From Candidatus Rokuibacteriota bacterium (GTDB lineage: Bacteria > Methylomirabilota > Methylomirabilia > Rokubacteriales > CSP1-6), in the NCBI GenBank assembly GCA_003220345.1, contig QHSC01000092.1, forward strand, positions 1 to 64,000: DNA of 64,000 nt, in the 5' to 3' direction. Made by a program: the position numbers and the translations under genes. A model generated the notes under the pieces. The model made no database searches. It saw nothing but the letters and a program-made list of their open reading frames with translations, and was not told the DNA's origin. This document shows, piece by piece, positions 5,822 to 44,644 of this stretch (the first letter of the stretch is position 1; each line of letters starts with the position of its first letter).

Positions 5822-5835
5822 TCGGAGGCTCTCCC

Positions 5836-6291: not shown

Positions 6292-7175
6292 TGCGCCGAT
6301 CGCTTCACTTCGTCCCCGGCGGACAGGAGCGGATGATCGCCAAGGCCCTCACCCTCCCCGCGGATGGCCTCATCCTCGATCTCGAGGACGCGGTGCCTCC
6401 TTCATTGAAGCCCGCGACGCGGCCCATCGTGCGTCGCTGGCTCGAGACCCTCGACTTCGGCGGGCGCGAGCGGTGGGTGCGGATGAATCCGATCTTCACC
6501 GAGCACGCCATCCCCGACCTGGAGGAGACCATCACCGCCCGGCCCGATGGATACCTGGTGCCCAAGCCGCGCTCGGCCGCCGACGTGCGCCAGGTGGCGC
6601 AGGCCCTCGAGCGGCTCGAGGAGAAACACGGGATCCCCTTCGGGTCGACCAAGCTCATCCTCATCGCCACGGAGACGCCGCGCGGGCTCCTCAACATCGG
6701 CGAGGTCGCCGCGGCCAGCCCGCGGATCACCGCGCTGTCCTGGGGCATCGAGGACCTGGGGGCGGCCATGGGCCTGCCCCGCGTTCGGGATGAGTCGGGG
6801 CGCTATCTGGACATTCCCCGCCACGCGCGTGTCATGTGCGCGGTGGCAGCCTCGGCCGCAGGCGTGGAATGGCTCGACACCGTCTACACGGATATTCCCG
6901 ATCTCGAAGGGCTGCGGCGCGAGTGCAGGGAAGGCGTGGCCATGGGCTTCAGCGGGAAGCTGTCGATCCATCCGAGCCAGGTCGAGGTGATCAACCAGGA
7001 GTTCACGCCCTCCAAGGCCGACGCCGAGGATGCCCTCGCGCTCATCGCGGCCTTCGAAGAGCACGCGCGCAAGGGCGCGGGCGCCTTCGCCTGGAAGGGC
7101 CAGATGATGGACCAGCCCCACCTCACCCGCGCGCAAAAGATCGCCGAGCGCGCCCGGCAGGCAGGGGTCATCTGA
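6291..7175 (+). CDS. CitE-like HpcH/HpaI-family lyase (malyl-CoA/citramalyl-CoA lyase or thioesterase type)
   Basis: 294 residues. The start shows the family hallmark RSLHFVPGGQERMIAKAL and the metal-binding LDLEDAVPP. Further on come the catalytic-type Arg in RWVRMNP, the Glu in LIATETPRGLLN and the Asp in GIEDLGAAMG. These TIM-barrel enzymes cleave or form C-C bonds of beta-hydroxyacyl-CoAs (malyl-CoA, citramalyl-CoA) with Mg2+; one branch acts as malyl-CoA thioesterase. No CitD/CitF partner is present, so this is not citrate lyase proper. It is translationally coupled to the MaoC gene upstream and overlaps the glycosyltransferase gene downstream by CTGA. Confidence 0.83.
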   Translation: MRRSLHFVPGGQERMIAKALTLPADGLILDLEDAVPPSLKPATRPIVRRWLETLDFGGRERWVRMNPIFTEHAIPDLEETITARPDGYLVPKPRSAADVRQVAQALERLEEKHGIPFGSTKLILIATETPRGLLNIGEVAAASPRITALSWGIEDLGAAMGLPRVRDESGRYLDIPRHARVMCAVAASAAGVEWLDTVYTDIPDLEGLRRECREGVAMGFSGKLSIHPSQVEVINQEFTPSKADAEDALALIAAFEEHARKGAGAFAWKGQMMDQPHLTRAQKIAERARQAGVI

Positions 7176-8752
7176 CGGCAGCGCAGGCCTCGCGCCGCGC
7201 CGGACTCTGGCTCGCGGCGCTCCTTCTCGCGAGTGCCGTCGTCTTCGCGCTTCCTCTCGGCCGCCGCCCGCTCAGCAACCAGGACGAGGCCCGCTATGGT
7301 CTCCTCGCCCGGGAGGCCGTCGAGCATGGCCGCTGGATCCTCCCCGGCGTGCGCGACGAGGTCTACCTCAACAAGCCGCCCCTTTACTTCTGGGTCGTCG
7401 CGGTCTTCGCCCTGCCCTTTGGGGCTGTCACGGATGCCACCGCGCCCATCGCGTCCGTGCTGTCGGCCCTCATGGGGCTCCTCGGCGTGTTCGCCGTCGG
7501 GCGTCGATTGTGGGACGACGACACGGGGCTGGCCGCGGCCGTGGTGCTCGCCACCAGCCCCTTCTATTTCTTCATGGCGCACCAGGTGCTCACCGACATG
7601 ATGCTGACCGCGTGGATGACCTGGGCGCTCTACTTCTACCTCGCCTCGCTGGACGAGGGCGCCCGGCGCGGCGCGCTGGTGGGCTTCTATCTGTGCGCGG
7701 CGGGCGGCCTCGCCGCCAAGGGGCCGGCCGCCCTCATGGTGCTGGTGGCCGCCGTCGCCGCGAGCCTCGCCACGGACGGCGCGCAGGGGCTCAAGCGGCT
7801 CCGGCTGCCCATGGGGGTCGGCATCCTCGCTCTGACGGCGCTGCCGTGGCTCCTGCCCTATCTCCTCCAGCGCGAGAAGAGCTACGGGCGAGCCGTGGTG
7901 ATGACGGACTATCTCGGCTGGTACTTCAAGAGCGCGGTCGGCTCGAGGCTGCAGGCGATCGCCGGACACCTGCTGCGCTTCTTGCCGTGGGGCGCTTTCC
8001 TGATCCCGGCGGCGTGGTGGTGGACGCGGTCGCGCGACGTCGGCCGGCGGCGGGTTCTCGTGTGGGCCGCGACGCTCATCGTGCTGCTGAGCCTCTCGGG
8101 CGAGCAGCGCGCGCGCTACTTCCTTCCCCTCTGGCCCGTGCTGGCGCTCTTCGTCGGCCAGTTCTTCACGAGGGCCCCGGCCCGCCTCGTGGCATGGGCG
8201 AGCGGCGCCTATCTCCTGGTGATGATGGGAGCGGGGGCCTTTCTGCTCTGGGGGGGCGTGTCCGATCCCGACGCCGTCTTTCTTCCCGCCGCGCCGTGGG
8301 AGCGCTGGCTGGTGGCGGGCGCCCTCGTCATCGGGGCGGCGCTCGGGCTCTGGCAGCTTCTCCGCGGCGGCAACGGGTTCGCGGCGGCCACGTGGATGGC
8401 CGCCGGGCTCGGCATTGCTCTCGCGGTGACCGCCGTCGAGTATCCCGCTCGCTTCGCCCAGGCCAACGACTATCGCGGCGTGGCCCAGCGCTTCGTCTCG
8501 CGCCTCGACGCCGGCGCTCCGCTGCTCTCCTATCCGGACGCCAACCTCGCCTGGGATTTCTACATGCGACACCCCGTGCGCGAGGTGCGGAGCGACGCGG
8601 AGGTGAAATCTCTCCTCGCTTCAACGCCCGGGGCGCGCCTCATGCTGCGCGAGGAGGACTGGACCCGTCTTCGCGCCGTCGCCCATCCCACCTGGCGCGT
8701 GCTGGACGAGGGCACGGTGGGCCGCCGCCACTTCGTGCTCCTCGGCGACTAG
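7172..8752 (+). CDS. ArnT/PMT-like GT39-family membrane glycosyltransferase
   Basis: 526 residues with about 10-12 membrane helices. The first periplasmic loop carries SNQDEARYGLLAREAVEHG, the Asp-Glu signature of lipid-linked sugar transferases such as ArnT. Such enzymes move a sugar from a polyprenyl phosphate donor to lipid A or another surface acceptor on the outer face of the inner membrane. The frame has no ATG, GTG or TTG between the lyase gene and the signature; CTG at 7172, overlapping the previous stop as CTGA and preceded by CAGGGG, gives an intact first helix. The ORF track starts at 6836, inside the lyase gene, which is improbable. Acceptor unknown. Confidence 0.78.
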   Translation: MTAAQASRRAGLWLAALLLASAVVFALPLGRRPLSNQDEARYGLLAREAVEHGRWILPGVRDEVYLNKPPLYFWVVAVFALPFGAVTDATAPIASVLSALMGLLGVFAVGRRLWDDDTGLAAAVVLATSPFYFFMAHQVLTDMMLTAWMTWALYFYLASLDEGARRGALVGFYLCAAGGLAAKGPAALMVLVAAVAASLATDGAQGLKRLRLPMGVGILALTALPWLLPYLLQREKSYGRAVVMTDYLGWYFKSAVGSRLQAIAGHLLRFLPWGAFLIPAAWWWTRSRDVGRRRVLVWAATLIVLLSLSGEQRARYFLPLWPVLALFVGQFFTRAPARLVAWASGAYLLVMMGAGAFLLWGGVSDPDAVFLPAAPWERWLVAGALVIGAALGLWQLLRGGNGFAAATWMAAGLGIALAVTAVEYPARFAQANDYRGVAQRFVSRLDAGAPLLSYPDANLAWDFYMRHPVREVRSDAEVKSLLASTPGARLMLREEDWTRLRAVAHPTWRVLDEGTVGRRHFVLLGD

Positions 8753-9825
8753 AACATCAGCACCGTGCGCGCGACCTCGCCCGCCTTCATGGCGCGAAAC
8801 GCTTCGTTCACGTCCTCGAGCTTGCCGCGACGGGTGATCATCTCGTCCAGCTTGAGGCGGCCCTGGCGGTACAGGTCGATGTAGCGCGGCATGTCCACCT
8901 TGAAGCGGTTGGAGCCCATGCTGCAACCCTGGATCTTCTTCTCGCGGAGGAACATGGGGCCGTCGAGCTCGATCTTCTGTCCCACCGGGATCATGCCCAC
9001 CACGGTGGCGGTGCCGCCCGGCCGGATGCAATCGAAGCACTGCTCGGCGGCGATCTTGAGGCCGATGCACTCGAAGGAGTAGTCTGCGCCGCCATTGGTC
9101 AGATCGCGAATGGCCTTCACGGGATCGCCGGACGACGCGTTGACGCCGTGGGTGGCGCCCAGCTCGCGCGCCTTGGCCAGCTTGGACTCCACCGTGTCCA
9201 CCGCGATGATCGTGCGCGCCCCCGCGATGCGGGCGCCCTGGATGGCGGCCAGGCCCACGCCACCCGCGCCGAAGACGGCCACGGTGCTGCCCGCTTCGAT
9301 CCGGGCCGTGTTCAGCACGGCGCCCACGCCCGTGGTGACGCCGCAGCCGATGAGGGCGGCGCGATCCAGCGGCATGGTGTCGTCGATCTTCACGAGGGCG
9401 TTCTCGTGGACGAGCATCTTCTCCGCGTAGGCGGAAAGGTTGGCGAACTGGTTGACGGCTTGGCCCTTCCACGACAGCTTGGGCGGATCCGTCTTGGCCC
9501 GCACGGGCCGCGTCTGGCAGAGATGGGTCTTGCCGGTGAGGCAGTAGTCGCAATGGCCGCAGAAGACGGAGAGACAAGCGATGACGTGATCGCCCGGCTT
9601 GAACTCGCCCACCTGGAGGCCGACCTCTTCCACGATCCCGGCGGCCTCGTGGCCCAGGATGGCGGGGGTGGGGAAGGGATAGAAGCCGTCGACGAAGTGC
9701 AGGTCGCTGTGGCAGACGCCGGAGGCGACGGTGCGCACGAGCACCTCGCGACCCATGGGCTTGTCGATGTCGACTTCCTCGATCGTCAGGGGCTGATGCG
9801 GGCCATGGAACATGGCAGCTTTCAT
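8749..9825 (-). CDS. Zinc-dependent alcohol dehydrogenase (MDR family)
   Basis: 358 residues. Catalytic zinc ligands Cys38 and the GHE pair at 58-60 are present, as is the structural zinc lobe CGHCDYC...C (about 89-103). A GAGGVGL Rossmann motif follows, for NAD(P). The sequence resembles the class III / NDMA-dependent or acyclic alcohol dehydrogenase branch, oxidising alcohols to aldehydes in the cytosol. ATG preceded by GGAGG. It is convergent with the GT39 gene: the tetranucleotide CTAG (8749-8752) supplies the stop codon of both. Substrate unknown; the downstream CoA-transferase and PoxB genes suggest a catabolic setting. Confidence 0.87.
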   Translation of the reverse strand: MKAAMFHGPHQPLTIEEVDIDKPMGREVLVRTVASGVCHSDLHFVDGFYPFPTPAILGHEAAGIVEEVGLQVGEFKPGDHVIACLSVFCGHCDYCLTGKTHLCQTRPVRAKTDPPKLSWKGQAVNQFANLSAYAEKMLVHENALVKIDDTMPLDRAALIGCGVTTGVGAVLNTARIEAGSTVAVFGAGGVGLAAIQGARIAGARTIIAVDTVESKLAKARELGATHGVNASSGDPVKAIRDLTNGGADYSFECIGLKIAAEQCFDCIRPGGTATVVGMIPVGQKIELDGPMFLREKKIQGCSMGSNRFKVDMPRYIDLYRQGRLKLDEMITRRGKLEDVNEAFRAMKAGEVARTVLMF

Positions 9826-9917
9826 GGAGGCCTCCTCTTGGATTTACGGGCCCGGGAGCGTCTCACCGGGAGCAGGCCCAGAGAGTGCGCCGCCGTGCCC
9901 GACGTGTCAAGCCGTGA

Positions 9918-10523
9918 TCAGACGGCGCCCGACTCCGACCGCGGGAGACCGTCGAGATGGTCGATGGAGTTCAGCAGCCGGACTCGCCAGGGGGCGGGAT
10001 AGTCGATGATGGTGAGGGCCGTGTTCTCCCAGCGCTCCGGCGCCTCCTGCCCGTCGGGCAGGATCAGGTGCCGCCCGGCCAGCGAGCGACAGACGAGGCC
10101 GTGCGTGACGACGGCGAGGTTTCCCTTGGCCGCGGCGGCCGTCTGCTGGACGAGCGCCCAGGCGCGATCGACGCGAGCGTGGAAGACCTCCCAGCTTTCC
10201 CCGTTCGGCGGCGTGTAGGCCGGGGCGAACATGTCGAAGCGCAGCTCCGCGTAGGGCGTGCCGCGGATGTCGCCGAAGTTGCGCTCCTGGAGGAGGGGGT
10301 CATATCGCACGGGGGCGCCGGTGGCGCCCCGCAGGTAGTCGGCCGTGGTGACCGCTCGCGCAAGATCGCTCGAGAGGATGCTGGCGATGCCCTCTCGCTC
10401 GAGGCGCCGGGCCAGCCGCTCGGCCTGGGTCATGCCGCGGGGCGAGAGCGGGTTGTCGGGAAGCTGGACGGTGCGCGACGCATTGCCCAGCGTCTCGCCG
10501 TGGCGGATGAGAAAGATGGACAC
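9918..10523 (-). CDS. Histidine phosphatase family protein
   Basis: 201 residues of the phosphoglycerate-mutase-like superfamily. The N-terminal IRHGET places the phosphohistidine at residue 8; the Arg partner lies in SSDLARAVTTA, and the second catalytic His is in VVTHGLV. The middle segment LLQERNFGDIRG is the common Glu-containing acid/base loop. Members act as phosphatases of sugar phosphates, cofactor precursors or phosphoproteins; nothing here fixes the substrate. Same strand as the CoA-transferase (32 nt upstream), so probably co-transcribed. Confidence 0.85.
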   Translation of the reverse strand: MSIFLIRHGETLGNASRTVQLPDNPLSPRGMTQAERLARRLEREGIASILSSDLARAVTTADYLRGATGAPVRYDPLLQERNFGDIRGTPYAELRFDMFAPAYTPPNGESWEVFHARVDRAWALVQQTAAAAKGNLAVVTHGLVCRSLAGRHLILPDGQEAPERWENTALTIIDYPAPWRVRLLNSIDHLDGLPRSESGAV

Positions 10524-10555
10524 GAGGCTTTACCGACGAAGTGGGATGGTGCGAC

Positions 10556-11752
10556 TCAGATCACGCGGTCACGACGAAGGCCCGCGATGTCCCCCGCCGC
10601 ATAGCCCAGGCCGGCCAGGACGTCGTCGGTATGCTGGCCGAGCTTCGGCGCCGTCACCCGCACGGCCACCGCGCTGTCGGACATCTTCACGGGCGTCCGG
10701 ATGTGGGGCACGCGGCCGAGCTCGGTATCCTCGGCGTGCACGACCATCTCGCGGTGCAGCACCTGCGGATCGGCGAAGAGCTGCTCGTAGGTGTACACGG
10801 GCCCGCACGGCACTCCCGCGTCGTCCAGCGCCTTGATCCAGTGCGCGGTGGGCGCCGTGGCCAGGACCGCCGAGATCTCCTTCTCGAGGGCGAAGCGATT
10901 CTTCCGGCGATCGGGGCCGCGGCGGAAGCGCGGGTCCTCGAGCCACTCGGGATGGCCGAGGGCGGGCGCGCAGCGCTCCCAGATGCCCTGGCCGGCCGCG
11001 CCGATCATCATGTAGCCGTCCTTGGTCTCGAAGCGCTGGTACGGCGCGTTCTGCCGATGGCGGGAGCCCATTCGCTTGGGCTCCACGTGATCGGCGAGCC
11101 AGCCCGCGCTCGTCCACGAGGAAAAGGCCACCGCCGTCTCCAGGAGCGAGCACTCGACGCGCTGTCCCTGGCCCGTGCGCTGCCGCTCGTAGAGGGCGGC
11201 GAGGATGCCCTGCACTCCCCACATGCCGGTGCCGAGATCGCAGATGGGCAGGCCCACCGAGGTCGGAGGCCCGTCCGGCTCTCCCGTGACGTGCATGATC
11301 CCGCCCATGCCTTGCGCGATCAGATCGAAGCCGCCCTTCTCGCGATAGGGCCCATCAGAGCCGAAGCCGGAAAGCTGGGCATAGACGAGGCGCGGGTTCT
11401 TCTCCTTGAGCGTCTCGAAGCCGAGCCCGGCCCGCTCCATGACGGTGGCGCGGTAGTTTTCCACGAGCACGTCCATGCCGGCGACGAGCTTGAGGAAGAT
11501 CTCCTTGCCGCGGGGCGACTTGTAATCGAGCGTCAGGCTCTTCTTGTTGCGGTTGATGTAGCGGAAGTAGGGATTGCGCTCGCTGCCGTCGCCCATGGCG
11601 CGCGAGGAATCGCCCGCCCCGGGCCGCTCCACCTTGATCACGTCGGCGCCCATGTCGGCCAGGATCATGGTGCAGTACGGCCCCGCCATGTGCTCGGTCA
11701 GGTCGAGAACCCTGAGCCCATCCAGGGGCCCGCGCGCGTTCTTCTGGGCCAT
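10556..11752 (-). CDS. Family III CoA-transferase (CaiB/BaiF/Frc type)
   Basis: 398 residues, the usual length. It opens with GPLDGLRVLDLTEHMAGPYC, followed by DVIKVERPGAGD, the ENYRATVMERAGLG segment and YAQLSGFGSDGP; LPICDLGTGM holds the position of the catalytic Asp that forms the acyl-aspartyl intermediate. It transfers CoA between an acyl-CoA and a free carboxylic acid in the cytosol. GGAGG precedes the ATG. It follows poxB on the same strand after 74 nt. The acid substrate cannot be predicted; formyl-CoA, succinyl-CoA and carnitine-type donors are all known in the family. Confidence 0.88.
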   Translation of the reverse strand: MAQKNARGPLDGLRVLDLTEHMAGPYCTMILADMGADVIKVERPGAGDSSRAMGDGSERNPYFRYINRNKKSLTLDYKSPRGKEIFLKLVAGMDVLVENYRATVMERAGLGFETLKEKNPRLVYAQLSGFGSDGPYREKGGFDLIAQGMGGIMHVTGEPDGPPTSVGLPICDLGTGMWGVQGILAALYERQRTGQGQRVECSLLETAVAFSSWTSAGWLADHVEPKRMGSRHRQNAPYQRFETKDGYMMIGAAGQGIWERCAPALGHPEWLEDPRFRRGPDRRKNRFALEKEISAVLATAPTAHWIKALDDAGVPCGPVYTYEQLFADPQVLHREMVVHAEDTELGRVPHIRTPVKMSDSAVAVRVTAPKLGQHTDDVLAGLGYAAGDIAGLRRDRVI

Positions 11753-11826
11753 GTCACCTCCGTGAAAGTCACGTCTTCATGCCGGCCGCTCACGAAGCCG
11801 GAGGGCATCATAGCTTGCCCGCGCCT

Positions 11827-13551
11827 CTAACGGAAGAGATTGACCTTGGCCAGATCGATGATTTCCTCGCCGCGCCCGCTCAGCACGGCCTTGAGCATGA
11901 AGAGACCGAAGCCGGTCATCTGATCGAGCTTGATCGAGGGCGGCATGGCCAGCTCCTGCCGGTGGACGAGAACCTCGACGAGGGCGGGTCCGTCATGACG
12001 GAGAGCCTGCGTGATCATCGGCCGAACCTGTTCGGGCGCTTCCGCGGTCATCCCCAGGAGGCCGGCCGCCTCGGCCATCTTCGCGAAATCCGGGTTGTGA
12101 AGATCGGTGGCGAAGTCCAGGAAACCGGCGGCCTTCATCTCCAGCTCCACGAAGGCGAGGGCGTTGTTCTTGAAGACGATCACCTTGACGGGCGCCTGCA
12201 GCTGCCGCAGGGAGAGCAGATCTCCCATGAGCATGGCGAGACCGCCGTCTCCAGACAAGGAGATGACCTGGCGTCGGGGATGACTGACCTGGGCGCCGAT
12301 GGCCTGGGGGAGGGCATTGGCCATGGAGCCGTGATTGAAGGAGCCGAGCAGGCGCCGCTGGCCGTTCATGGTGAGATAGCGCGCCGCCCAGACGGTCGGG
12401 GTGCCCACGTCGCAGGAAAACACGGCGTCCGGGGCGGCGATCTCGTCGAGCACCCGAACCACGTACTGGGGATGAATGGTTTTCTTGCCCGGCTCGCCCT
12501 GGGCCAGCTCGTCGAGGCTCTTCCGCGCTTTCCGATAATGGTCGAGCGAGGCTCGGAGGTGCTTGTCGTCTCCATTCTGCTCGAGCTGGGGCAGGAGAGC
12601 CCGGAGGGTCGTCTTGGTGTCCCCCACGAAACCGTGGTCGACCTTGGTGCGCCGGCCGAGCTGCTCGCCGCGGAGGTCGATCTGCACGACGGTCGCGTCC
12701 GTGGGAAAGAACTGCTGGTACGGGAAGTCCGTCCCGATCATCAGCAAGAGGTCACAGTTCATCATGGCGTGATAGCCGGAGGAGAAGCCGAGCAGCCCGG
12801 TCATGCCCACGTCGAAAGGATTGTCGTACTCGATGAACTCCTTTCCGCGCATGGCATGCACGATGGGAGCGTTCAGCTTGCCCGCGAGCTGGATCAGCTC
12901 GGTATGGGCCCCCGCGCAGCCCGCACCTGCCAGGATGGTGACCTTCTGCGTCGCATTGAGAAGCTTGGCCAACACGAAGATCTCCTCGGGCGAAGGAGAC
13001 ACGCTGGGCTTGGGCGGGGGGAAATGCAGGCGCGGGTGATCCGCGAGGGCGTCGCGCAAGGCGATGTCTCCGGGCAGGGCGATGACCGACACGCCGCGCC
13101 GCGAGAGCGCCGTCTGGATGGCGATCTCCAGGACCCTGGGCATGTGCTCGGGCTGGGACACCAGCTCGCAATAGTGGCTGCACTGCGCGAAGAGGTGCTC
13201 CGGGCGGGTCTCCTGGAAGTATCCGCTGCCGATCTCGTGGCTGGGGATCTGCGCGGCGATGGCGAGGACGGGCACCCGGCTGCGGTGACAGTCGTAGAGG
13301 CCGTTGATCAGGTGCAGATTGCCGGGACCACAGCTGCCTGCGCAGACGGCCAGGCCTCCGGTGAGATGCGCGTCTGCGCCCGCGGCGAAGGCCGCCGTCT
13401 CCTCGTGCCTCACGTGCACCCACCGCACACGCTCCTGCCGGCGAATCGAATCGGTGATTCCGTTCAGGGAGTCGCCGGCTACGCCGTAGATCCTCTCGAC
13501 TCCCTGGGCGACCAGAGTGTCGACGAGGAGATCCGCGATCGTCTTGGCCAT
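11827..13551 (-). CDS. poxB: Pyruvate oxidase / pyruvate:quinone oxidoreductase (ThDP, FAD)
   Basis: 574 residues, close to E. coli PoxB (572) and colinear from memory: GVAGDSLNGI near the N-terminus, the ThDP-activating Glu in VRHEETAAFAAGA, CAGSCGPGNLHLINGLYDCHR, and the ThDP-binding SGDGGLAM with the matching NN. Most telling is the C-terminal segment LSGRGEEIIDLAK, the amphipathic peptide by which PoxB docks on the membrane to pass electrons to quinone. It therefore probably decarboxylates pyruvate to acetate plus CO2 at the inner membrane. A TACAAT box is visible 70 nt upstream. Acetolactate synthase and other ThDP enzymes lack that tail. Confidence 0.9.
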   Translation of the reverse strand: MAKTIADLLVDTLVAQGVERIYGVAGDSLNGITDSIRRQERVRWVHVRHEETAAFAAGADAHLTGGLAVCAGSCGPGNLHLINGLYDCHRSRVPVLAIAAQIPSHEIGSGYFQETRPEHLFAQCSHYCELVSQPEHMPRVLEIAIQTALSRRGVSVIALPGDIALRDALADHPRLHFPPPKPSVSPSPEEIFVLAKLLNATQKVTILAGAGCAGAHTELIQLAGKLNAPIVHAMRGKEFIEYDNPFDVGMTGLLGFSSGYHAMMNCDLLLMIGTDFPYQQFFPTDATVVQIDLRGEQLGRRTKVDHGFVGDTKTTLRALLPQLEQNGDDKHLRASLDHYRKARKSLDELAQGEPGKKTIHPQYVVRVLDEIAAPDAVFSCDVGTPTVWAARYLTMNGQRRLLGSFNHGSMANALPQAIGAQVSHPRRQVISLSGDGGLAMLMGDLLSLRQLQAPVKVIVFKNNALAFVELEMKAAGFLDFATDLHNPDFAKMAEAAGLLGMTAEAPEQVRPMITQALRHDGPALVEVLVHRQELAMPPSIKLDQMTGFGLFMLKAVLSGRGEEIIDLAKVNLFR

Positions 13552-13709
13552 GGCACCTCACGCTCCTTTTTTCATGACGCAAAAGCCCCTCTTTCGGCGG
13601 TGGAGCTCGCGTTCGTTCTCATTGTAGTCCTGGCATCAACCGTCCGGGGCGCGCGGAGGGGCCGGATCCGGTTGACGATGGCGTCCCCCCTGTGCCAGCG
13701 TGATGGCCC

Positions 13710-14489
13710 GTGAGAAAACAAGGCCGCCGTCCCCCTCTCGGGCGTGACGTGATGCTGTGCTTGCTCGCCTGGGCCGCGGGTATCGTCGACGCGGTCAGCT
13801 ACCTGGGCCTCGGCCGCGTGTTCACCGCGATGATGACGGGAAACACGGTGTTGCTCGCCCTGGCCATCGGACAGGGGGAGAGCATGGCCATCTTGCGCTC
13901 GGCCCTCGCCCTCGCCGGGTTCAGCGTGGGCGCGGCAACGGGGGCGTTCATCGTCTCGCGGGGGCGGTCACGAGACGAGTGGCCCCCGAGTGTCACGGCC
14001 GCCTTCGCCTTCGAGGCGCTCCTTCTCGCGGGATTCACGGCGGTGTGGCACGTGGCGGGGAGCACGCTCACCACCGGTACGACCAACCTGCTCATCGTCC
14101 TCTCAGGTCTCGCCATGGGCGTCCAGGCCGCGGCGGTGCGCCATCTGGGGATTCCCGGGGTGGCAACGACGTATCTCACGGGCACGCTCACGAGCCTGAT
14201 GGCCGAGCTGGTGGGCTGGGGGCGCGCGCTGGCAGGGGCGTCGCTGCGCGCGGCCTCGAGCGCCGAGAGGGCGATCGACGCGTCGGCGAGCCTGAAGTGG
14301 CCGCAGCGCATCGGGCTCCTCACCGGGATTTTCTTCGTCTACGCCCTGGGCGCGCTCGTGGGCGGCGCGCTGCACGCGCGCTCATCGACGCTGGTGGCCT
14401 GGCTGCCCTTCGCGGCGGTCGTCGTGGTCGTGGTGAACGGAGTGATGCGTCATCGACATGCCGGGCACGGCTCCCGAGGAGGAAGCTAG
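13710..14489 (+). CDS. DUF1275 (YoaK-like) integral membrane protein
   Basis: 259 residues, six to seven predicted membrane helices. The family signature is the first two helices: AAGIVDAVSYLGLGRVFTAMMTGN, with conserved Asp and TGN. A second repeat-like half contains GVQAAAVRHLGIPGVATTYLTGTL. Function of DUF1275 is unknown; a transporter role is commonly guessed. GTG start at 13710 chosen because it precedes the first helix directly. Transcribed away from poxB across a 158-nt gap in which I see nothing beyond the poxB promoter region. Confidence 0.85.
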   Translation: MRKQGRRPPLGRDVMLCLLAWAAGIVDAVSYLGLGRVFTAMMTGNTVLLALAIGQGESMAILRSALALAGFSVGAATGAFIVSRGRSRDEWPPSVTAAFAFEALLLAGFTAVWHVAGSTLTTGTTNLLIVLSGLAMGVQAAAVRHLGIPGVATTYLTGTLTSLMAELVGWGRALAGASLRAASSAERAIDASASLKWPQRIGLLTGIFFVYALGALVGGALHARSSTLVAWLPFAAVVVVVVNGVMRHRHAGHGSRGGS

Positions 14490-14616
14490 CCATGGGGCGG
14501 CCCGGGCGTTTCCGTGCGTGAGGTGTTTTCGGTCTGCCACAGCCTGACTCAACCGCCAAGGCATGCCCTTCACGGCTCTTCCCTATGGATATATACTTCA
14601 GCGATTGGCAAAGACG

Positions 14617-36528: not shown

Positions 36529-37445
36529 AGCGTTGGCTCTCGTCCGGCTTCTGCGTGCTGCTCCTCGGGCTCGCCCTCTATCCCATGGCCGGCACCGGCT
36601 ACGGCATCCGCTTCATGCTCCAACTCTTCATGTGGATCGCTCTCGCCCAGTCGTGGAACCTGATCTCCGGGCTCACGGGCTATGTGTCGTTCGGTCATAT
36701 CGTGTTCTTCGGCATGGGCGCCTATACCGCGGCCATCCTCATCGCCAAGCTCGGCTGGCCCTGGCTCCTGGCCAGCCTCGCCGGCGGCGTGGGGGCGATC
36801 GTGCTGGCCACGGTGATCGGCTGGCCCTGTCTGCGCCTGAAGGGTCCCTACTTCGCCATTTCGATGCTGGGGCTCAACGAGGTCCTGCGCGTGGCGGTGT
36901 CCTATTTCGAAGGGCTCACGGGCGGGGGCAGCGGGCTCTCCCTCCCGTCCCTCTACGCCAGCGTGGCCATCTATTATTCCATGGGGATCGTGGCGCTGGC
37001 CGTGACCGCCCTCGCCTATGTCGTCGTCACCTCGCGCTTTGGGCTCCGGCTGATGACGATCCGCGAGGACGAGATCGCGGCGGAGGCCATGGGCATCGAT
37101 ACCTTCCGCTACAAGCTCTACGCGTTTCTGCTCTCCGCCGTCGGCCCGGGTATCGTGGGCGGCCTCGCCGCGCGCGATCAGAGCTATATCGAGCCGGTCT
37201 CCGTCTTCCCGCTCATCATGACCATCACGATGATCGTGATGGTGCTCTTCGGCGGCAAGGGCACGATCTGGGGGCCGGTGCTCGGGGCGGTCCTGCTCTT
37301 CACCCTCCAGGAGATGATCTGGTCCCGCTTCATCTATGTCCACCAGCTCCTCTTCGGTGCCATCATCGTCATCGTGGTGCTCTTCATGCCCCGCGGCATC
37401 CTGGGTGTCCTGCAGCAGAAATACAACCTCCCCCGGACCATCTAG
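36525..37445 (+). CDS. livM: LivM-type ABC permease (system 2)
   Basis: 306 residues, GTG start within the livH stop. SWNLISGLTGYVSFGHIVFFGMGAYTAA, LRLKGPYFAISMLGLNEVLR and MTIREDEIAAEAMGID identify LivM; about nine membrane helices. The gap to livG (205 nt) is filled by a long inverted repeat, the only spacing in this otherwise overlapping operon. Confidence 0.93.
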   Translation: MKRWLSSGFCVLLLGLALYPMAGTGYGIRFMLQLFMWIALAQSWNLISGLTGYVSFGHIVFFGMGAYTAAILIAKLGWPWLLASLAGGVGAIVLATVIGWPCLRLKGPYFAISMLGLNEVLRVAVSYFEGLTGGGSGLSLPSLYASVAIYYSMGIVALAVTALAYVVVTSRFGLRLMTIREDEIAAEAMGIDTFRYKLYAFLLSAVGPGIVGGLAARDQSYIEPVSVFPLIMTITMIVMVLFGGKGTIWGPVLGAVLLFTLQEMIWSRFIYVHQLLFGAIIVIVVLFMPRGILGVLQQKYNLPRTI

Positions 37446-37475
37446 TCTTGGCTTTCAAAAATCCGACACCACGCG

Positions 37476-37628
37476 GCGGCGGGTGGGGCAGGGGGCATCC
37501 CCCGCGGACCCGTATCTTCTGCGCGCCATCGAAGCCAAAGACCTCATTCTCGTGGCTCCTTACGAGACTCCACAGCGGGCCGCGAGTCAGCGTGGTCCGC
37601 GGGGGATGCCCCCTGCTCCGCCCGCCGC
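37476..37628. repeat. Long inverted repeat between livM and livG
   Basis: Arms of 35 nt (37476-37510 and 37594-37628) are complementary with two mismatches; the core is CAGGGGGCATCCCCCGCGG. The 83-nt loop has no recognisable gene. The element lies inside the operon, so it is either a mobile REP/MITE-like insertion or a strong processing hairpin. Confidence 0.8.
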
Positions 37629-37650
37629 ATTGTCGGCACGCACAACTTTG

Positions 37651-38355
37651 ATGCCGCCCATCTTAGAAATCGACCGAGTCGTCAAACGCTTCGGTGGCGT
37701 CACCGCCGTGGATCACGTCTCCTTGAGCCTGGAGGCCGGGCACATCTACGGCCTGATCGGCCCCAACGGCTCGGGCAAGACCACGCTCTTCAACTGCATC
37801 ACCGGCGTCGAGCAGCGTGACGAGGGCGAGATCCGCTTCAAAAGGCGACGGATCGACGGGCTCAAGCCGCATCAGGTCTTTCACGAAGGCATCGGGCGCA
37901 CCTTCCAGATCATCCGGGTCTTTCCCGAGCTCACGGCGCTGGAGAACTTGCTCGTGGTCACCACCGATGACTACGCGCAGGCGAGCGAGCGCGCCCGCGA
38001 GCTCCTCCGCTTCGTCAAGCTCGAGGGGTTGGCCGGCGAGTACGCGGGCAATCTCTCCTACGGCCAGCAGAAGCTCGTGGAGTTCATCCGCGTCCTCATG
38101 ACGGACCCGGAGCTCATCCTCCTCGACGAGCCGGCGGCGGGCGTCAACCGCACCCTCCTCAACGACCTCCTGGATGCCGTGCGGCAGCTGCGTGATCGAG
38201 GCAAGACCGTGCTCCTCGTGGAGCACGACATGAAGGTCGTGATGGGACTCTGCGAGACGGTCTTCGTCCTCGACCACGGCGAGAAGCTGGCCGAGGGACC
38301 GCCCGGCGTCATCCAGACCGACGAGCGAGTGATTGAAGCCTATTTTGGTCGCTAG
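37651..38355 (+). CDS. livG: LivG-type ABC ATPase (system 2)
   Basis: 234 residues: RFGGVTAVDHVSLSLEAG, Walker A GPNGSGKTT, GIGRTFQIIRVFPELTALENL, signature LSYGQQKLVEFIRVL, Walker B LILLDEPAAGVN, and the C-terminal VFVLDHGEKLAEGPPGVIQTDERVIEAYFG. The ATG at 37651 follows the inverted repeat; the track start runs through it. The 3' end overlaps the glycosyltransferase gene by 23 nt. Confidence 0.92.
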   Translation: MPPILEIDRVVKRFGGVTAVDHVSLSLEAGHIYGLIGPNGSGKTTLFNCITGVEQRDEGEIRFKRRRIDGLKPHQVFHEGIGRTFQIIRVFPELTALENLLVVTTDDYAQASERARELLRFVKLEGLAGEYAGNLSYGQQKLVEFIRVLMTDPELILLDEPAAGVNRTLLNDLLDAVRQLRDRGKTVLLVEHDMKVVMGLCETVFVLDHGEKLAEGPPGVIQTDERVIEAYFGR

Positions 38356-39817
38356 CGCCGGCCTCGCCCTCTATCTCGTCTGGCGCTCCCTGAGCTGGCC
38401 GCTCATCCACGATGCCCCCCTCATGCACTACGTCGCCTGGCTCATCACCCAGGGCGCGGTGCCGTACCGCGACGTCTTCGACATGAATCTCCCCGGCGTC
38501 TACCTGGTTCACGTGGCCGTGATCAAGACGCTGGGGGAAGGGAGTGTGGCCTGGCGGCTCTTCGACCTGGGGTGGCTCGCCGCCACCGCCGCCGCGCTCT
38601 GGGGCTTCTGCCGGCGCATGGGTGATGACTGGAGCGGGCTCGGCGCCGCGCTCCTGTTCATCCTCTATCATCTAGCCGGCGGCGCCTGGCGCGCGGGCCA
38701 GCGCGATTTCTTGCTTGCCCTGCTCCTCGTGCTGGCGGCCTGGGGTGTGGCGCGGAGCTGGGAGACGGGTGAAACCCTCGTGCCGCTCGCGTGGGGGGGT
38801 CTGGCGGCGGGCGCCGGCATCATGATCAAGCCCCACGTGGCGGCCTTCTGGCTCGCCTGCGCGCCCATCGTGATCCTGGGCGCGAGCCGGGCGCGGCGTT
38901 CCGCCGTTGCCGCCGTGGCCGTCTGGACGGGCGCCGGCCTCGCCGTCCCCGTGCTCGTGCTCGGCTGGCTCGCGATGCGCGGCGGGCTCGGCGCCTTCGC
39001 CGACATCACCACCGGGTATGTCTTGCCGCTCTACAGCCGAGTAGGTGGCGAGCCGATCTGGCAGGTGATGCGCTGGCACGCCTACGGCTGGCAGATCTGG
39101 ATCTGCCTGGTTGCCCTCGCGCTCCTGGGGGCGGCCCAGCGCATCCCCGCGCCGTATGGAATCAGGCGCGCGCTCGCCGTCCTGGGCGCGGTCTATGGCG
39201 GCTGGCATTTCACGAGCCAGGGCAAGGGATGGGAGTATCACCTCTACCCGCTGGCCGTCTTTCTCTGCGTCCTCGGCTCCATGGCCCTGGCCCCGGCCTC
39301 TCGGGCGACGGCGAGCCGGTGGAACGTCGCGCCGGGTCTGTCGCGGGCGGCCAGCCTGGCCGTCCTCGTGACCGTCGTGGCGTTCCTTGGCCTCAAGGGC
39401 GTGGACGCCGCCGATGCGCCCTGGATCGCAGCCAAGGAGCGGCGCGTCTCGGCGCTGGTGCGTGACCTCGAGCCGCTCGTGGGACCCGGCGGCACCGTGC
39501 AGGTGATGGACGTGACCGAGGGCGGGATTCACGCGCTCCTGCGCCTGCACCTCCGAGAGCCCACGCGCTTCCTCTACGACTTTCACTTCTTTCACGACGA
39601 GGGAGACCCGCGCATCCAGGCCCTTCGCGCCGAGTTCTCGCGCGGCCTCGAGACGCGGCCTCCCGTTGCCGTGGTGATCTTCCGCGACACGTGGCGCCGC
39701 GCGGGCTATGCCCGGCTGGAGGCGCTCCCGGCAGTCACCCGCCTCCTCCAGACTGACTACCGCCTCGCCGTCGAGGGCGACGGCTATCGGATCTATGCGC
39801 AGCGAAGCCGTTCGTAG
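38333..39817 (+). CDS. GT39-like (PMT/ArnT fold) membrane glycosyltransferase inside liv system 2
   Basis: 494 residues with about 10-11 helices; TTG 38333 or 38345. After helix 1 comes HDAPLMHYVAWLITQGAVPYRDVFDMNLPGVYLVH: the D-x-P and PYRDVFDMN segments are typical of the GT39-like dolichyl/polyprenyl-phosphate sugar transferases. The C-terminal region (about 370-490) is soluble and probably periplasmic. It overlaps livG (23 nt) and the methyltransferase gene (23 nt), so it is embedded in the operon. Substrate unknown. It is not a close copy of the GT39 at 7.2 kb. Confidence 0.75.
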   Translation: MKPILVASAGLALYLVWRSLSWPLIHDAPLMHYVAWLITQGAVPYRDVFDMNLPGVYLVHVAVIKTLGEGSVAWRLFDLGWLAATAAALWGFCRRMGDDWSGLGAALLFILYHLAGGAWRAGQRDFLLALLLVLAAWGVARSWETGETLVPLAWGGLAAGAGIMIKPHVAAFWLACAPIVILGASRARRSAVAAVAVWTGAGLAVPVLVLGWLAMRGGLGAFADITTGYVLPLYSRVGGEPIWQVMRWHAYGWQIWICLVALALLGAAQRIPAPYGIRRALAVLGAVYGGWHFTSQGKGWEYHLYPLAVFLCVLGSMALAPASRATASRWNVAPGLSRAASLAVLVTVVAFLGLKGVDAADAPWIAAKERRVSALVRDLEPLVGPGGTVQVMDVTEGGIHALLRLHLREPTRFLYDFHFFHDEGDPRIQALRAEFSRGLETRPPVAVVIFRDTWRRAGYARLEALPAVTRLLQTDYRLAVEGDGYRIYAQRSRS

Positions 39818-40439
39818 AGTCATTCGCGCCTACGACGACTGGATCGTCCGCGGCTACTGCTGGGGGCGCTTCTGGATCCTTCGCCAGCGCTTTCTGGACG
39901 AGATCGGCCAGTATCTACCCGAGCGCGGACGAGTGCTCGATCTCGGCTGTGGATTCGGCCTCTTCTCGCTGTACTACGCCAGCGTGCTGCCGGAGGTCAG
40001 GCTCCAGGGGCTGGACCGCAATCCGCGTCGCATCGCCATGGCGCAAGCGGCGGCGCGGCGGCTCGGCCTGACCAATGTGAGCTACGACGTGGGCGACGTC
40101 ATGGACTTTCGCGGCGGGGAACGGGTTGACGCGGTCTACATGCTCGACATCGTGCACCACATTCCTGCCGACGCCGTTCGGCCCCTTCTCGAGCAGGTTG
40201 CCAAGGTCCTGCCGGCGGGCGGGCTCCTCCTGATCAAGGACGTGGACCGGACGCCCGCCTACAAGCGATGGTTCACGCATGTCCTCGACAAGGTCATGGA
40301 TCCGGGCACGCCCGTGCGCTACTGGGACGCGGATGAGCTGATGGCCACGCTGACCGAGAGCGGCTTCGGCGTCCGTCGTCACCTCATGGTGGACATCTTG
40401 CCGTACCCGCACATTCTCTACATTTGCGTGCGCCAGTGA
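39795..40439 (+). CDS. Class I SAM-dependent methyltransferase
   Basis: 214 residues. SAM-binding motif I VLDLGCGFGLFSLYYAS, acidic motif LQGLDRNPRRI, then DVGDVMDF and AVYMLDIVHHIPAD (motif IV-like). The hydrophobic, Lys/Arg-rich second half (TPAYKRWFTHVLDKVM) suggests a membrane-near or lipid-linked acceptor, as in ubiquinone/glycolipid-type methyltransferases; that is inference. ATG 39795 lies inside the glycosyltransferase gene, and its stop shares a base with the livF ATG (TGATG). Confidence 0.83.
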   Translation: MRSEAVRRVIRAYDDWIVRGYCWGRFWILRQRFLDEIGQYLPERGRVLDLGCGFGLFSLYYASVLPEVRLQGLDRNPRRIAMAQAAARRLGLTNVSYDVGDVMDFRGGERVDAVYMLDIVHHIPADAVRPLLEQVAKVLPAGGLLLIKDVDRTPAYKRWFTHVLDKVMDPGTPVRYWDADELMATLTESGFGVRRHLMVDILPYPHILYICVRQ

Positions 40440-41158
40440 TGGCGCCGCCGCTCCTTCTGCAGGCGCAGGGGCTGACCGCGGGCTACGGCAAGATGCCCAT
40501 CCTCCATGACGTCTCCCTCGACGTGCGCGCGGGCGAGATGGTCAGCATCATCGGCCCCAACGGCGCCGGCAAGTCGACCGCGCTCAAGAGCATCGTCGGC
40601 TTCGTGAAGGTCTCGAGCGGGCACGTGCGCTTCGACGGCCAGGAGATCACCGGGCTGCGGCCCGATCAGGTCTTGCCTCGCGGCCTCGCCTACGTGCCCC
40701 AGGGGCGGATCGTCTTCCCGCAGATGACCGTGCTCGAGAACCTCGAGATGGGGGGCTACATCGAGCGCGATGGGCAGCGCATCCGCAAAGCCCTCGAGCA
40801 GGTCTTCGGCCTCTTCCCCATCCTGGGCGAGCGGCAGCGCCAGAAGGCGGGCACCATGTCGGGCGGCGAGCAGCAGATGGTCGCCATCGCCCGCGCCCTC
40901 ATGACCCGGCCCAAGCTCATCCTCCTGGACGAGCCGTCGCTGGGGCTCTCGCCCAAGTTCGTCTCGCTGATCTTCGACAAGCTCATGGCCATGAAGCACT
41001 CGGGCTACACCCTCGTGGTCGTGGAGCAGAACGCGGCCAAGGCGCTGGCTGTGGCCGATCGCGGCTATGTCCTCGAGCTCGGCAGGAACCGCTTCGAGGG
41101 GACGGGCGCGGCGCTGCTGGCCGACCCTGAGGTGAAGCGTCTTTACCTCGGCGGGTAA
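40439..41158 (+). CDS. livF: LivF-type ABC ATPase (system 2)
   Basis: 239 residues: A-loop GYGKMPILHDVSLDVRAGE, Walker A GPNGAGKST, YVPQGRIVFPQMTVLENLEMGGY, signature MSGGEQQMVAIARAL, Walker B LILLDEPSLGLSPK. Complete. It is separated from livG by the GT/methyltransferase pair but coupled to the latter by TGATG. ATG 40439 rather than GTG 40424 is chosen for that reason. Confidence 0.93.
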   Translation: MAPPLLLQAQGLTAGYGKMPILHDVSLDVRAGEMVSIIGPNGAGKSTALKSIVGFVKVSSGHVRFDGQEITGLRPDQVLPRGLAYVPQGRIVFPQMTVLENLEMGGYIERDGQRIRKALEQVFGLFPILGERQRQKAGTMSGGEQQMVAIARALMTRPKLILLDEPSLGLSPKFVSLIFDKLMAMKHSGYTLVVVEQNAAKALAVADRGYVLELGRNRFEGTGAALLADPEVKRLYLGG

Positions 41159-41201: not shown

Positions 41202-42305
41202 ATGGATCGTTTGTTGCGGCCTTCTGCCGCCGCCGGCCTCGTCATCGCCATTGCCTTCATCGCTCTGCTGGTCGGGTTCCCGAGCTTGGCCGCCCGGATG
41301 TCAGCCAATCGCGTTCAAGCCGCCACCGCGCCCTCTTCCGGCAAGACGGCCTCCACGGAACCGGCCAAAGTCGAGCACGCCGGCGGCGGGCACGCGGGCT
41401 TCACGGACAAGGCCATCCTCGAGCGGGGCAAGCAGACCTACACGAAATATTGCGCCTCGTGTCACGGCGACGCGGGCCTGGGCGATGGCCCGGGGGGCGC
41501 CAACCTTCCCATCAAGCCGCAGAATCTCACGCTCGGCGCGGTGATGAACCCCCTGCCCGATCACTTCCTGCACAAGATCATCGCGGATGGGCCCCAGGCG
41601 GTCGGGCTGTCCGAGCTGATGCCGCCCTTCAAGCCGCAGCTGGGAGATCGTGCGATCGACGAGGTCATCGCGTATGTCCGTACTCTGGCCAATCCGCCCT
41701 ACGAGCCCGAGCGGGTGCTGCCGGTGGCGGAGAAGCGTGAGGGTCCCGTCCAGCCCATCCTGTTCAGCCACGTCATCCACGCGGGGTCGTATCGCCTCGA
41801 CTGCCAGTACTGTCACACGGGCGCCCGGCGGAGCAGCTCGGCCGGCTTGCCGTCGGTGGAGCGATGCATGGGGTGTCACAAGATCGTGGCCGCCCAGGGC
41901 AACGCGCAGGTGCAGAAGCTTCACGCGTTCTGGGAAAAGCAGCAGCCCATCCCGTGGGTGCGCATCTTCAAGATTCCCGAGCATGCGCAGTTCCCCCACA
42001 AGAATCACATCGCGGCGGGGCTCCAGTGCCAGACCTGTCACGGCCGCATCGAGGCCATGGAGCAGGTGCACGCCAAGACGGGACAGAACATCGTCAACGA
42101 TCTGGCCAACCTCTCCGGGATGGCGATTCCGCCCACGAAGCTGACCATGGGCTGGTGCGTCGAGTGCCATCGCGCGGTGAACGACAAGGGCGTGCAGGCG
42201 GTCCAGCCCGTGGCCGACGCCTGGGGCTCGGCACCCAGGCCGCCGACGGCGGACGACACGAAGCCGCGCAAGGCGCCGCTGGAGTGCGTGGCCTGCCACC
42301 ATTGA
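41202..42305 (+). CDS. Hexahaem cytochrome: monohaem c domain fused to an ActA-like pentahaem domain
   Basis: 367 residues. An N-terminal membrane helix (about 11-31), then six CXXCH sites: CASCH (84-88), CQYCH (201-205), CMGCH (222-226), CQTCH (276-280), CVECH (319-323) and CVACH (362-366) at the extreme C-terminus. Residues 64-165 form a class I cytochrome c (RGKQTYTKYCASCHGDAGLGDG ... VIAYVRTL). From 185 on, the text FSHVIHAGSYRLDCQYCHTGARRSSSAGLP and PIPWVRIFKIPEHAQFPHKNH matches the pentahaem ActA subunit of alternative complex III. It is exposed in the periplasm. No ActBCDEF gene follows. GGGAGGAG precedes the ATG. Confidence 0.85.
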   Translation: MDRLLRPSAAAGLVIAIAFIALLVGFPSLAARMSANRVQAATAPSSGKTASTEPAKVEHAGGGHAGFTDKAILERGKQTYTKYCASCHGDAGLGDGPGGANLPIKPQNLTLGAVMNPLPDHFLHKIIADGPQAVGLSELMPPFKPQLGDRAIDEVIAYVRTLANPPYEPERVLPVAEKREGPVQPILFSHVIHAGSYRLDCQYCHTGARRSSSAGLPSVERCMGCHKIVAAQGNAQVQKLHAFWEKQQPIPWVRIFKIPEHAQFPHKNHIAAGLQCQTCHGRIEAMEQVHAKTGQNIVNDLANLSGMAIPPTKLTMGWCVECHRAVNDKGVQAVQPVADAWGSAPRPPTADDTKPRKAPLECVACHH

Positions 42306-42366: not shown

Positions 42367-43278
42367 GTGTCTCCTCGCTCCCACAAGTTCGTCCAGGTGG
42401 ATGTGTTCACCGACCGCGTGTTCGGTGGCAATCCGCTCGCCGTGCTCCTCGACGCGCGCGGGCTCGACGACGCCCTCATGCAGCAGATCGCGCGCGAGAT
42501 GAATCTCTCCGAGACTGTCTTTCTGTTCCCGCCCACGCGCCCTGACTGCGTCGCCGCCCTCCGGATCTTCACGCCGGCTCGCGAGGTGCCCTTCGCCGGG
42601 CATCCGACCATCGGCACCACGTGGGTCCTGGCCGCCCGGGGCATGGCGCCCAAGGGCGCGGCCCGCTTCACCCTGGAGGAAAAGATCGGACCCGTGCCCG
42701 TCGAGCTCGAAGGCGATCCGGGGCGCCCGAGCTTCATCTGGATGAGCCAGCAGGACGCGACCTTCGATCCCGCCCTCGAGAACCGCGAGGCCGTCGCCCG
42801 CGCGCTCGGCCTCACTGCGGCCGACCTCTGGCCCGCCGTCCCCATCCAGCCCGGCTCCACCGGCAACAAGTTTCTCTTCGTGCCGCTGCGCGACAAGGCG
42901 ACGGTGGACCGCGCCGTCCTCGACGTGCGCGCCATGCTGGAGGCCATGGGCGAGCGGCCGCGCATGGGCATCTTCGTCTTCGCTCCCGATCCGGACGCCG
43001 CGGCAGGCCGCGTGTACTCGCGCATGTTCGGCCCGCACAGCTCGGGCATTCCGGAGGACCCGGCCACGGGCTCGGCCAGCGGCCCGCTCGGCGCCTACCT
43101 CGTGCTGAACGGGATGGTGAAGGGGTCGGGCGACGTGAAGATCGTGAGCGAGCAGGGAGCCAAGATGGGCCGGCAGAGCTTCGTGCACATCCGGCTCGCC
43201 ACGCGCGGCGGCGCCGTGACCGACATCAGAGTGGGCGGCGGCGTGGTGCCCGTGCTCGAGGGCGAATTGAGGATCTGA
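42367..43278 (+). CDS. PhzF-family isomerase/epimerase
   Basis: 303 residues, GTG start. PhzF/diaminopimelate-epimerase fold with the N-terminal FVQVDVFTDRVFGGNPLAVLLDA, catalytic Glu in NLSETVFLF, substrate loop PFAGHPTIGT and the C-terminal EDPATGSASGPLGAYL. Members isomerise small acids such as trans-2,3-dihydro-3-hydroxyanthranilate in phenazine synthesis; most, as here, stand outside phenazine clusters and have unknown substrates. Convergent with the MmgE/PrpD gene (4 nt between stops). Confidence 0.88.
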   Translation: MSPRSHKFVQVDVFTDRVFGGNPLAVLLDARGLDDALMQQIAREMNLSETVFLFPPTRPDCVAALRIFTPAREVPFAGHPTIGTTWVLAARGMAPKGAARFTLEEKIGPVPVELEGDPGRPSFIWMSQQDATFDPALENREAVARALGLTAADLWPAVPIQPGSTGNKFLFVPLRDKATVDRAVLDVRAMLEAMGERPRMGIFVFAPDPDAAAGRVYSRMFGPHSSGIPEDPATGSASGPLGAYLVLNGMVKGSGDVKIVSEQGAKMGRQSFVHIRLATRGGAVTDIRVGGGVVPVLEGELRI

Positions 43279-43282
43279 TCCG

Positions 43283-44644
43283 TCACGTGGTAGGCGAGAG
43301 AATCGCGGTCAGGCTCCGGAGGTCGGGGCAGCCGTCGAGCGTTTCGACCATCTGGCGCACGGAGTCGACGCGGTCCTCGGCGAGGACCAGTCGCGCGCAG
43401 TCGCGGAACTTCTCGCGCAACTGATCGATGGTCAACGGATGGCTGGGATGGCCCGGCACCGGGCGCGGGCCCAGAGCGACCTCGCGGCCGTCCCGCAGCT
43501 GAAGCGTGACACGCGTCCACATGTGGCGCTCGAGCTCGCTGGGGATCTCCGGATCCACCACCATGCGCGTGCGCTTCATCAGCTCCCGGATGGCCGGATC
43601 CTGCGCCTTGTCGTCCTGGAAGGTCTGCATGCCGACCTTGCCCTCGCAGAGGGCCGCTGCGGCGGAGAACTCGCCCGAGAACTTGGCCTCGAGTCCGCTC
43701 TTCGGGTTCGAGTGGATGAGGATGCGCGGCACGGTCGGATGCACGCCGATGGTGACCCGGGCGATATCGTCGGGCGCGACCCGGAGGGTCCGCTGGAGCT
43801 CGAGGGCGCTGTCGATGATGGAGTGAGTGCAGGCGCAGGACGGATAGGGCTTGACGGCCACGCCCGTGGTCAGGATCTTCCAGGGCGCCCCCAGCCGCTC
43901 GAGGGCGCTCTCCTCTCGCTTCCCGGCGCTCAGGACGGCGAGGTAGCCCTGCGGTCCCTCGATGGCCTGCTCGGAGGCAGTGAAGCCTTCGCGGGCGAGC
44001 AGCGCCGAGAGCACTCCGCTGCGCGCCGCGTGGCCGGCGTGAAAGGGCTTGGTCATGGTGCCGAAGTTTTCCTTGAGCCCCGAGGCCTGGGTGGCCGCGA
44101 TGGCCAGCGCCGTCCGGGTCTGCGCGCCGTCGAGCCCGAGGAGCCGGGAGGCCGCGGCCGCCGCGCCGATCGCCCCCAGCGTCCCCGTGGCGTGGAAGCC
44201 CTTCTCGTAGTGCGCGGGGTTGATCACCTCGGCGAGCGTCGTCTCGACCTCGAAGCCGAGCAGGAAGGCGTGCACGAGCGCGCGGCCGTCCGCGAGCGCC
44301 AGCTCGCCGGCCGCGAGGGCCGCCGAGAGGACGGGCGCCGAGGGGTGGCCCAGCATGGCGAAGTTGGTGTCGTCGAAGTCGAGCGCGTGCGCGGCGGTGC
44401 CATTGGCGAGGGCGGCCCACACGGCGCCCGTGCGTCGCCGCGTGCCCACGATGGTGGCGAGGGGCGCGCCGCCCTCGCTTTCCGCGATCTGCTGAACGAT
44501 CCGCGCTGCCGGCTCCGCGGAGCCCGCGAGCATGACGCCCACGCAGTCGAGAATGGCGCGACGCGCGGCGTCCACGGCGGCGACGGGGCAGTCTTCCCAG
44601 CGGCTCTTGACGATGAACTCGGCGATCACGGAGGTGGCGCGCAT
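43283..44644 (-). CDS. MmgE/PrpD family protein
   Basis: 453 residues, typical length. Family blocks: FIVKSRWEDCPVAAVDAARRAILDCVGVMLAGS, ALANGTAAHALDFDDTNF (the hallmark HALDxDD), HATGTLGAIGAAAAASRLLGLD and PYPSCACTHSIIDSAL. The family includes 2-methylcitrate, cis-aconitate-forming and related dehydratases without an Fe-S cluster; many members act on unknown acids. Divergently transcribed from the membrane protein gene at 44687, with only 42 nt between them. Confidence 0.87.
   Translation of the reverse strand: MRATSVIAEFIVKSRWEDCPVAAVDAARRAILDCVGVMLAGSAEPAARIVQQIAESEGGAPLATIVGTRRRTGAVWAALANGTAAHALDFDDTNFAMLGHPSAPVLSAALAAGELALADGRALVHAFLLGFEVETTLAEVINPAHYEKGFHATGTLGAIGAAAAASRLLGLDGAQTRTALAIAATQASGLKENFGTMTKPFHAGHAARSGVLSALLAREGFTASEQAIEGPQGYLAVLSAGKREESALERLGAPWKILTTGVAVKPYPSCACTHSIIDSALELQRTLRVAPDDIARVTIGVHPTVPRILIHSNPKSGLEAKFSGEFSAAAALCEGKVGMQTFQDDKAQDPAIRELMKRTRMVVDPEIPSELERHMWTRVTLQLRDGREVALGPRPVPGHPSHPLTIDQLREKFRDCARLVLAEDRVDSVRQMVETLDGCPDLRSLTAILSPTT

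Follow-up and report, generated by a model that had tools for sequence, protein, structure and literature searches.

In the solved structures of alternative complex III (ACIII), quinol is oxidised at ActC, from which electrons pass through Fe-S cluster 1 of ActB and along haems I to V of ActA to ActE (PMC5928083). ActA of R. marinus has one N-terminal transmembrane helix and five haems, lacks a fused monohaem domain, and is encoded in the act cluster (PMC5928083). ActA of F. johnsoniae (6btm chain A) combines an N-terminal monohaem domain with a pentahaem domain, giving six haems; its monohaem domain is membrane-anchored and mobile, and is missing from the resolved structure (PMC8552683). Deletion of actA in this bacterium abolishes aa3 oxidase activity, and it is debated what its ActE and the additional haem domain of its ActA do (PMC8552683). 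A six-haem ActA is itself already known from Bacteroidota.

Rokubacteria are soil and groundwater bacteria. Candidatus Rokuibacteriota of the NCBI taxonomy corresponds to the order Rokubacteriales of Methylomirabilota (PMC8780371). The window analysed here is a stretch of 64,000 nucleotides in contig C141 of a metagenome-assembled genome of this group (5.6 Mb in 429 contigs, 96.6% complete, 7.3% contamination). At 41202-42305 on the plus strand, a single open reading frame with an ATG start and no internal stop encodes a 367-residue ActA-type cytochrome c with six CXXCH motifs, at residues 84, 201, 222, 276, 319 and 362. A hydrophobic segment at residues 13-31 (41238-41294, plus strand) is the sole predicted transmembrane anchor, an N-terminal anchor being also present in R. 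marinus ActA, and the hydropathy scan beyond residue 31 revealed no further hydrophobic segment. The transmembrane segments that separate the monohaem and pentahaem domains of the Bacteroidota type are therefore absent. A class I monohaem cytochrome c domain with the haem motif CASCH at residue 84 spans approximately residues 70-165 (41409-41696, plus strand), followed by an ActA pentahaem domain at residues 181-367 (41742-42302, plus strand) that holds the remaining five motifs. Pfam analysis assigned residues 73-162 to the class I/CBB3-type cytochrome c (PF13442/PF00034) and residues ~181-367 to a multihaem cytochrome c.

Sequence search using phmmer revealed that the top matches of the hexahaem protein are four solved ActA subunits, namely 6btm_A (E-value 2e-29), 6f0k_A (2e-24), 8k9e_A (3e-23) and 6lod_A (2e-21). 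The AlphaFold2 model, of moderate confidence (pLDDT 76, pTM 0.68), has the same four ActA chains as its first four fold matches, and its monohaem part resembles ActE and cytochromes of the c6/c552 type. In an alignment of 54 sequences, the five haem motifs of the pentahaem domain are invariant, and the near-invariant ActA residues around them are retained. The six-haem protein of genome G055 (L009/L159, 4656-5585) has lost a cysteine in its pentahaem part, the first one of the haem I motif, which reads GQYCH in place of CQYCH; the operon of this genome runs off the contig upstream of actB. The multihaem domain is also homologous to QrcA, the multihaem subunit of menaquinone reductase (NF041781, E-value 8e-22), in a complex that reduces menaquinone (PMC6303296). 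Identity with QrcA was rejected, as the score of 77.7 bits lies below the curated equivalog cut-off of 180, and the model covers the multihaem part alone.

The same fusion occurs in ~40 independently assembled Rokubacteria genomes, and close relatives align with the protein end to end, from residue 1 to the last, which rules out a misassembly of two genes. A gene for a LivF-type ABC transporter ATPase (40424-41158, plus strand) lies directly upstream with a gap of 43 bp, and this neighbour is kept in genera g1, g11 and g23, which lack the operon copy of actA; the adjacency is not taken to imply a functional link. Downstream are a PhzF-family gene (42367-43278, plus strand) and an MmgE/PrpD-family gene (43283-44644, minus strand), both outside the ACIII system. 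The six haems, the joining of a class I monohaem module to a pentahaem part of the ActA type and these two next genes agree with the original prediction, which had in addition taken the fusion to be of a new type, a point on which the F. johnsoniae protein proves it wrong. The gene does not adjoin actB, a trait of gene order that we did not take as defining for ActA.

Across the family, the hexahaem gene is found in three contexts: after livF (g1, g11 and g23), after mlaA in genera that retain the operon actA, and, in g10, ahead of a gene for a 2-hydroxyacid dehydrogenase. In the mlaA context (L011-L026 and L028), an MlaA-type lipoprotein gene sits directly upstream, and an MsrP-type gene is often located a few kb upstream. 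In the stretch 37336-41158 of the window, a membrane (glycosyltransferase-like) gene and a methyltransferase-like gene are placed between the two genes for branched-chain amino acid ABC transporter ATPases, and similar genes precede livF in L006-L008.

Searching the genome for NrfD revealed an act operon elsewhere, on contig C84 (minus strand), in the order hemL-actB-actC-actD-actE-actF-moeA. Compared to complete Rokubacteria act operons, the identities are 59% for actB, 82% for actC, 68% for actD, 53% for actE and 62% for actF. The best solved relatives of its ActB are ACIII ActB chains, its ActD matches PF11821, the Pfam model of ACIII ActD, and its ActE carries one haem; the partners ActB, ActC, ActD and ActF are encoded in the same genome as the hexahaem protein. 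Elsewhere in Rokubacteria, the place between hemL and actB is usually taken by a pentahaem actA of ~192 residues, and on C84 the ~390 bp separating the two genes contain no CXXCH in any frame. The hexahaem gene is the sole ActA-type match across the window genome. The original prediction, which had seen no other ACIII gene, holds for the surroundings of the hexahaem gene and fails genome-wide; rather than an operon with its own complete ActA and an unconserved fusion, we found actBCDEF without actA and a conserved hexahaem gene.

Contig C374 of the same genome (L091, 4005-10120) encodes another quinone-linked complex, consisting of a molybdopterin oxidoreductase and a fused FeS-NrfD protein, with a dihaem cytochrome nearby. 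A second ACIII-like locus, seen in genome G045 (contig C124; L165, ~5284-14594) and in L117-L120, has a more distant ActA; its ActB is divided between two genes, and it also encodes several cytochromes with four or two haems. No ActA-type gene matching this locus was found in the window genome.

The presence of bc1 was judged by cytochrome b models, as the Rieske model PF00355 is too general and matches many other Rieske proteins. Two models (PF13631 and PF00033) detected no bc-type cytochrome b in the window genome, and none was found in five further genomes without an operon actA (G044, G046, G047, G054 and G056). The sole haem-copper oxidase subunit I of the window genome belongs to a ctaA/B-coxBACD-type cluster, and the subunit II of this oxidase bears a cytochrome c domain, as in the caa3 type. 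Given a single haem-copper oxidase and no bc1-type cytochrome b, ACIII is likely the quinol:cytochrome c step of this organism, and it probably feeds the caa3-type oxidase. An ActA would be required for this step if ACIII functions here as it does in F. johnsoniae.

We surveyed 57 genomes of the family, 52 of which are informative; G034 and G057, whose contigs start at actB, and G053, G055 and G062, in which the start of actB is unseen, were left out. An intact operon actA is present in 42 of the 52. The other ten have actB and no intact operon actA: the window genome G000 and G044-G047 (together every member of the window's genus that was sampled, so that the pattern recurs in four other members), G056, G075-G077 and G054. 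The six-haem gene is present in every one of the ten, compared to 29 of the 42 (13 lack it), a weak association that is not independent by descent; the argument for loss is therefore built on the survival of actBCDEF, on the remnants of actA and on the two clades described below.

Remnants of actA are found between hemL and actB in the three genomes of genus g23. The one in G077 retains the start and haems I-II and then stops, that in G076 is truncated on either side and finishes inside haem III, and the piece left in G075 is another one, surrounding haem III, indicating that the deletions differ. Identity between the remnants and working copies is mostly in the range of 50-67%, little under the 54-81% among working copies themselves, so the decay of the operon actA in g23 does not look old. 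In the ActB tree, in which some genomes are entered under two locus ids (L113/L157 and L115/L158), the ten genomes fall into two separate clades, one composed of g1, g11 and g23 (100/100) and the other being G054 among genera with actA (100/100). Barring regain, this branching requires that the operon actA was lost at least twice.

In the tree of pentahaem domains, all Rokubacteria sequences group together (98/82), hexahaem and operon ActAs included; within this group, a single clade (99/94) holds the six-haem proteins, apart from the operon ActAs. The window gene is under purifying selection, with an NG86 dN of 0.054 and dS of 0.322 against its nearest relative in G047, and dN is lower in the pentahaem part (0.020) than in the monohaem part (0.084). 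ActB is also under purifying selection, with a similar ratio (NG86 dN/dS of about 0.14). In genomes with both copies, the rates of the two pentahaem domains keep the same pace relative to ActB, with slopes of 0.85 for the six-haem protein and 0.88 for the operon ActA. In genomes with the six-haem protein only, the slope is 1.05 ± 0.08, compared to 0.85 with both copies, giving no sign, in rates relative to ActB, of stronger pentahaem constraint after the loss of the operon actA. Altogether, the rates show constraint on the six-haem protein and no clear mark of a takeover.

We propose that the hexahaem protein is probably the ActA subunit of ACIII, in a form with six haems whose gene lies apart from the act operon. 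As the operon lacks actA and the hexahaem gene is the sole candidate replacement, ACIII of the window organism probably draws its subunits from two distant loci, and we infer that the protein assembles with ActB. The N-terminal helix would anchor it in the membrane, and the pentahaem domain would dock on ActB where the lost subunit sat. Electrons from menaquinol, oxidised at ActC, would then pass through Fe-S cluster 1 of ActB to haems I-V of the hexahaem protein, and from haem V to ActE, to the fused monohaem domain or to both. The fused domain might serve as an extra, covalently tethered output haem beside the pentahaem wire, directed towards the caa3-type oxidase. In evolutionary terms, the fusion of a second actA copy to a monohaem cytochrome c may go back to an ancestor of most of the family; the fused and five-haem copies would then have existed side by side until, in at least two lineages, the fused one alone remained as ActA. 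Several findings count against the ActA role: the bc-type cytochrome b of four of the ten genomes without an operon actA (G045 and G075-G077), the rate of the pentahaem domain, which is no slower where the six-haem protein is the only copy, the fragmented and partly contaminated state of the window genome, offset by the same pattern in four other members of its genus, and the 29 genomes that hold the six-haem protein together with an intact five-haem operon ActA. Given this last coexistence, the six-haem protein must have had some function, perhaps outside ACIII, before the operon copy was lost.

Such a role was assumed in the original prediction, which took the protein for a free-standing electron carrier. 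It would then be a separate periplasmic carrier derived from ActA, running between ACIII or other quinol-linked complexes and the oxidases, with ACIII working without any ActA. This would fit a gene that lies beside no act gene, the coexistence with operon ActA, the combination of a single N-terminal anchor with its own monohaem module, and the other NrfD-type complexes of the genome. However, the retained actBCDEF would be left without an ActA despite the selection acting on ActB, an arrangement hard to match with the effect of the actA deletion in F. johnsoniae; moreover, the six-haem gene is kept in every genome without an operon actA, as are the pentahaem residues common to true ActA subunits. 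We thus consider a separate carrier improbable, and less likely than an ActA made in trans. Assignment to another complex, such as the C374 cluster, is less probable still: the cluster does exist in the genome, but it has its own dihaem cytochrome and no tie to the hexahaem gene, the pentahaem domain of which groups with ActA. The least probable of all is that an operon actA is present and was missed through an assembly gap, a binning error or a misassembly between hemL and actB. The window genome is indeed a fragmented and partly contaminated one, yet in nine more genomes hemL and actB share a contig and actA is either absent between them or reduced to remnants, recognisable broken pieces of the gene surviving in three of these.

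A further reading is compatible with a displaced ActA and extends it to genomes with two copies. Either ActA, the five-haem or the six-haem one, might be built into ACIII, which would then have two routes for its output, and the window lineage would have retained the six-haem form alone. The 29 genomes with both copies and the equal rates of the two pentahaem domains relative to ActB are in favour of such exchangeable isoforms, whereas the two copies could instead belong to different complexes. We advance it only tentatively, and we are just as guarded about its generalisation: that in most Rokubacteria ACIII has two exchangeable ActAs, a five-haem one from the operon and a six-haem one with a tethered output cytochrome encoded elsewhere, which wire one quinol-oxidising core to different acceptors, the operon copy having decayed in at least two lineages and left the six-haem form as the only one.

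Returning to the proposed six-haem ActA encoded in trans, loss of the operon actA is seen solely in lineages with the fused copy, and the decaying remnants are still readable. Annotation that demands a complete act operon would score ACIII as incomplete in these genomes and overlook the hexahaem gene. Within the open-access literature searched, we found no report of an independent hexahaem fusion outside the operon accompanied by decay of the operon copy, and nothing on the hexahaem gene in work linking ACIII and Rokubacteria.

Among the described and newly compared systems, the operon ActAs of Rokubacteria (e.g. L027, 9911-10489, and L045, 9890-10468) form the neighbouring clade, with ~55% identity over the pentahaem domain. 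They share with the hexahaem protein a family-specific insert before MGWCxECH, but are five-haem proteins of 192 residues encoded between hemL and actB. In another member of Methylomirabilota (L063), a separate monohaem gene (9902-10291) lies directly upstream of a pentahaem actA (10540-11055) in the act operon. The encoded monohaem protein shares 52% identity with the fused domain of the hexahaem protein, although the two genes are unfused. This pair looks like the arrangement before fusion, and a duplicated and fused pair of the same kind is a plausible source of the hexahaem gene. The ActAs of R. marinus and Chloroflexota (6f0k_A, 8k9e_A and 6lod_A; PMC5928083) have the pentahaem domain in common with the hexahaem protein, which also shares the single N-terminal transmembrane helix of R. 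marinus ActA, but differs from the latter in its sixth haem, its fused monohaem domain and its location outside the act cluster.

The best match in both sequence and fold is nevertheless the six-haem ActA of F. johnsoniae, from which the hexahaem protein differs in several respects. The F. johnsoniae gene is inside the act operon, whereas that of Rokubacteria is outside. In the Bacteroidota forms, the modules are separated by two transmembrane segments, compared to one N-terminal segment and a short linker in Rokubacteria. The Bacteroidota fusions are placed in a different clade of the pentahaem tree, so the two fusions seem to be independent. In Rokubacteria, this linker connects the monohaem domain directly to the N-terminal side of the pentahaem part, so the monohaem domain would differ in reach from that of F. 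johnsoniae. The hand-over of electrons from ACIII to its acceptors is unsettled, and Rokubacteria, which still have ActE and a caa3 oxidase beside the six-haem ActA, add a second and apparently independent six-haem ActA with a different tether.
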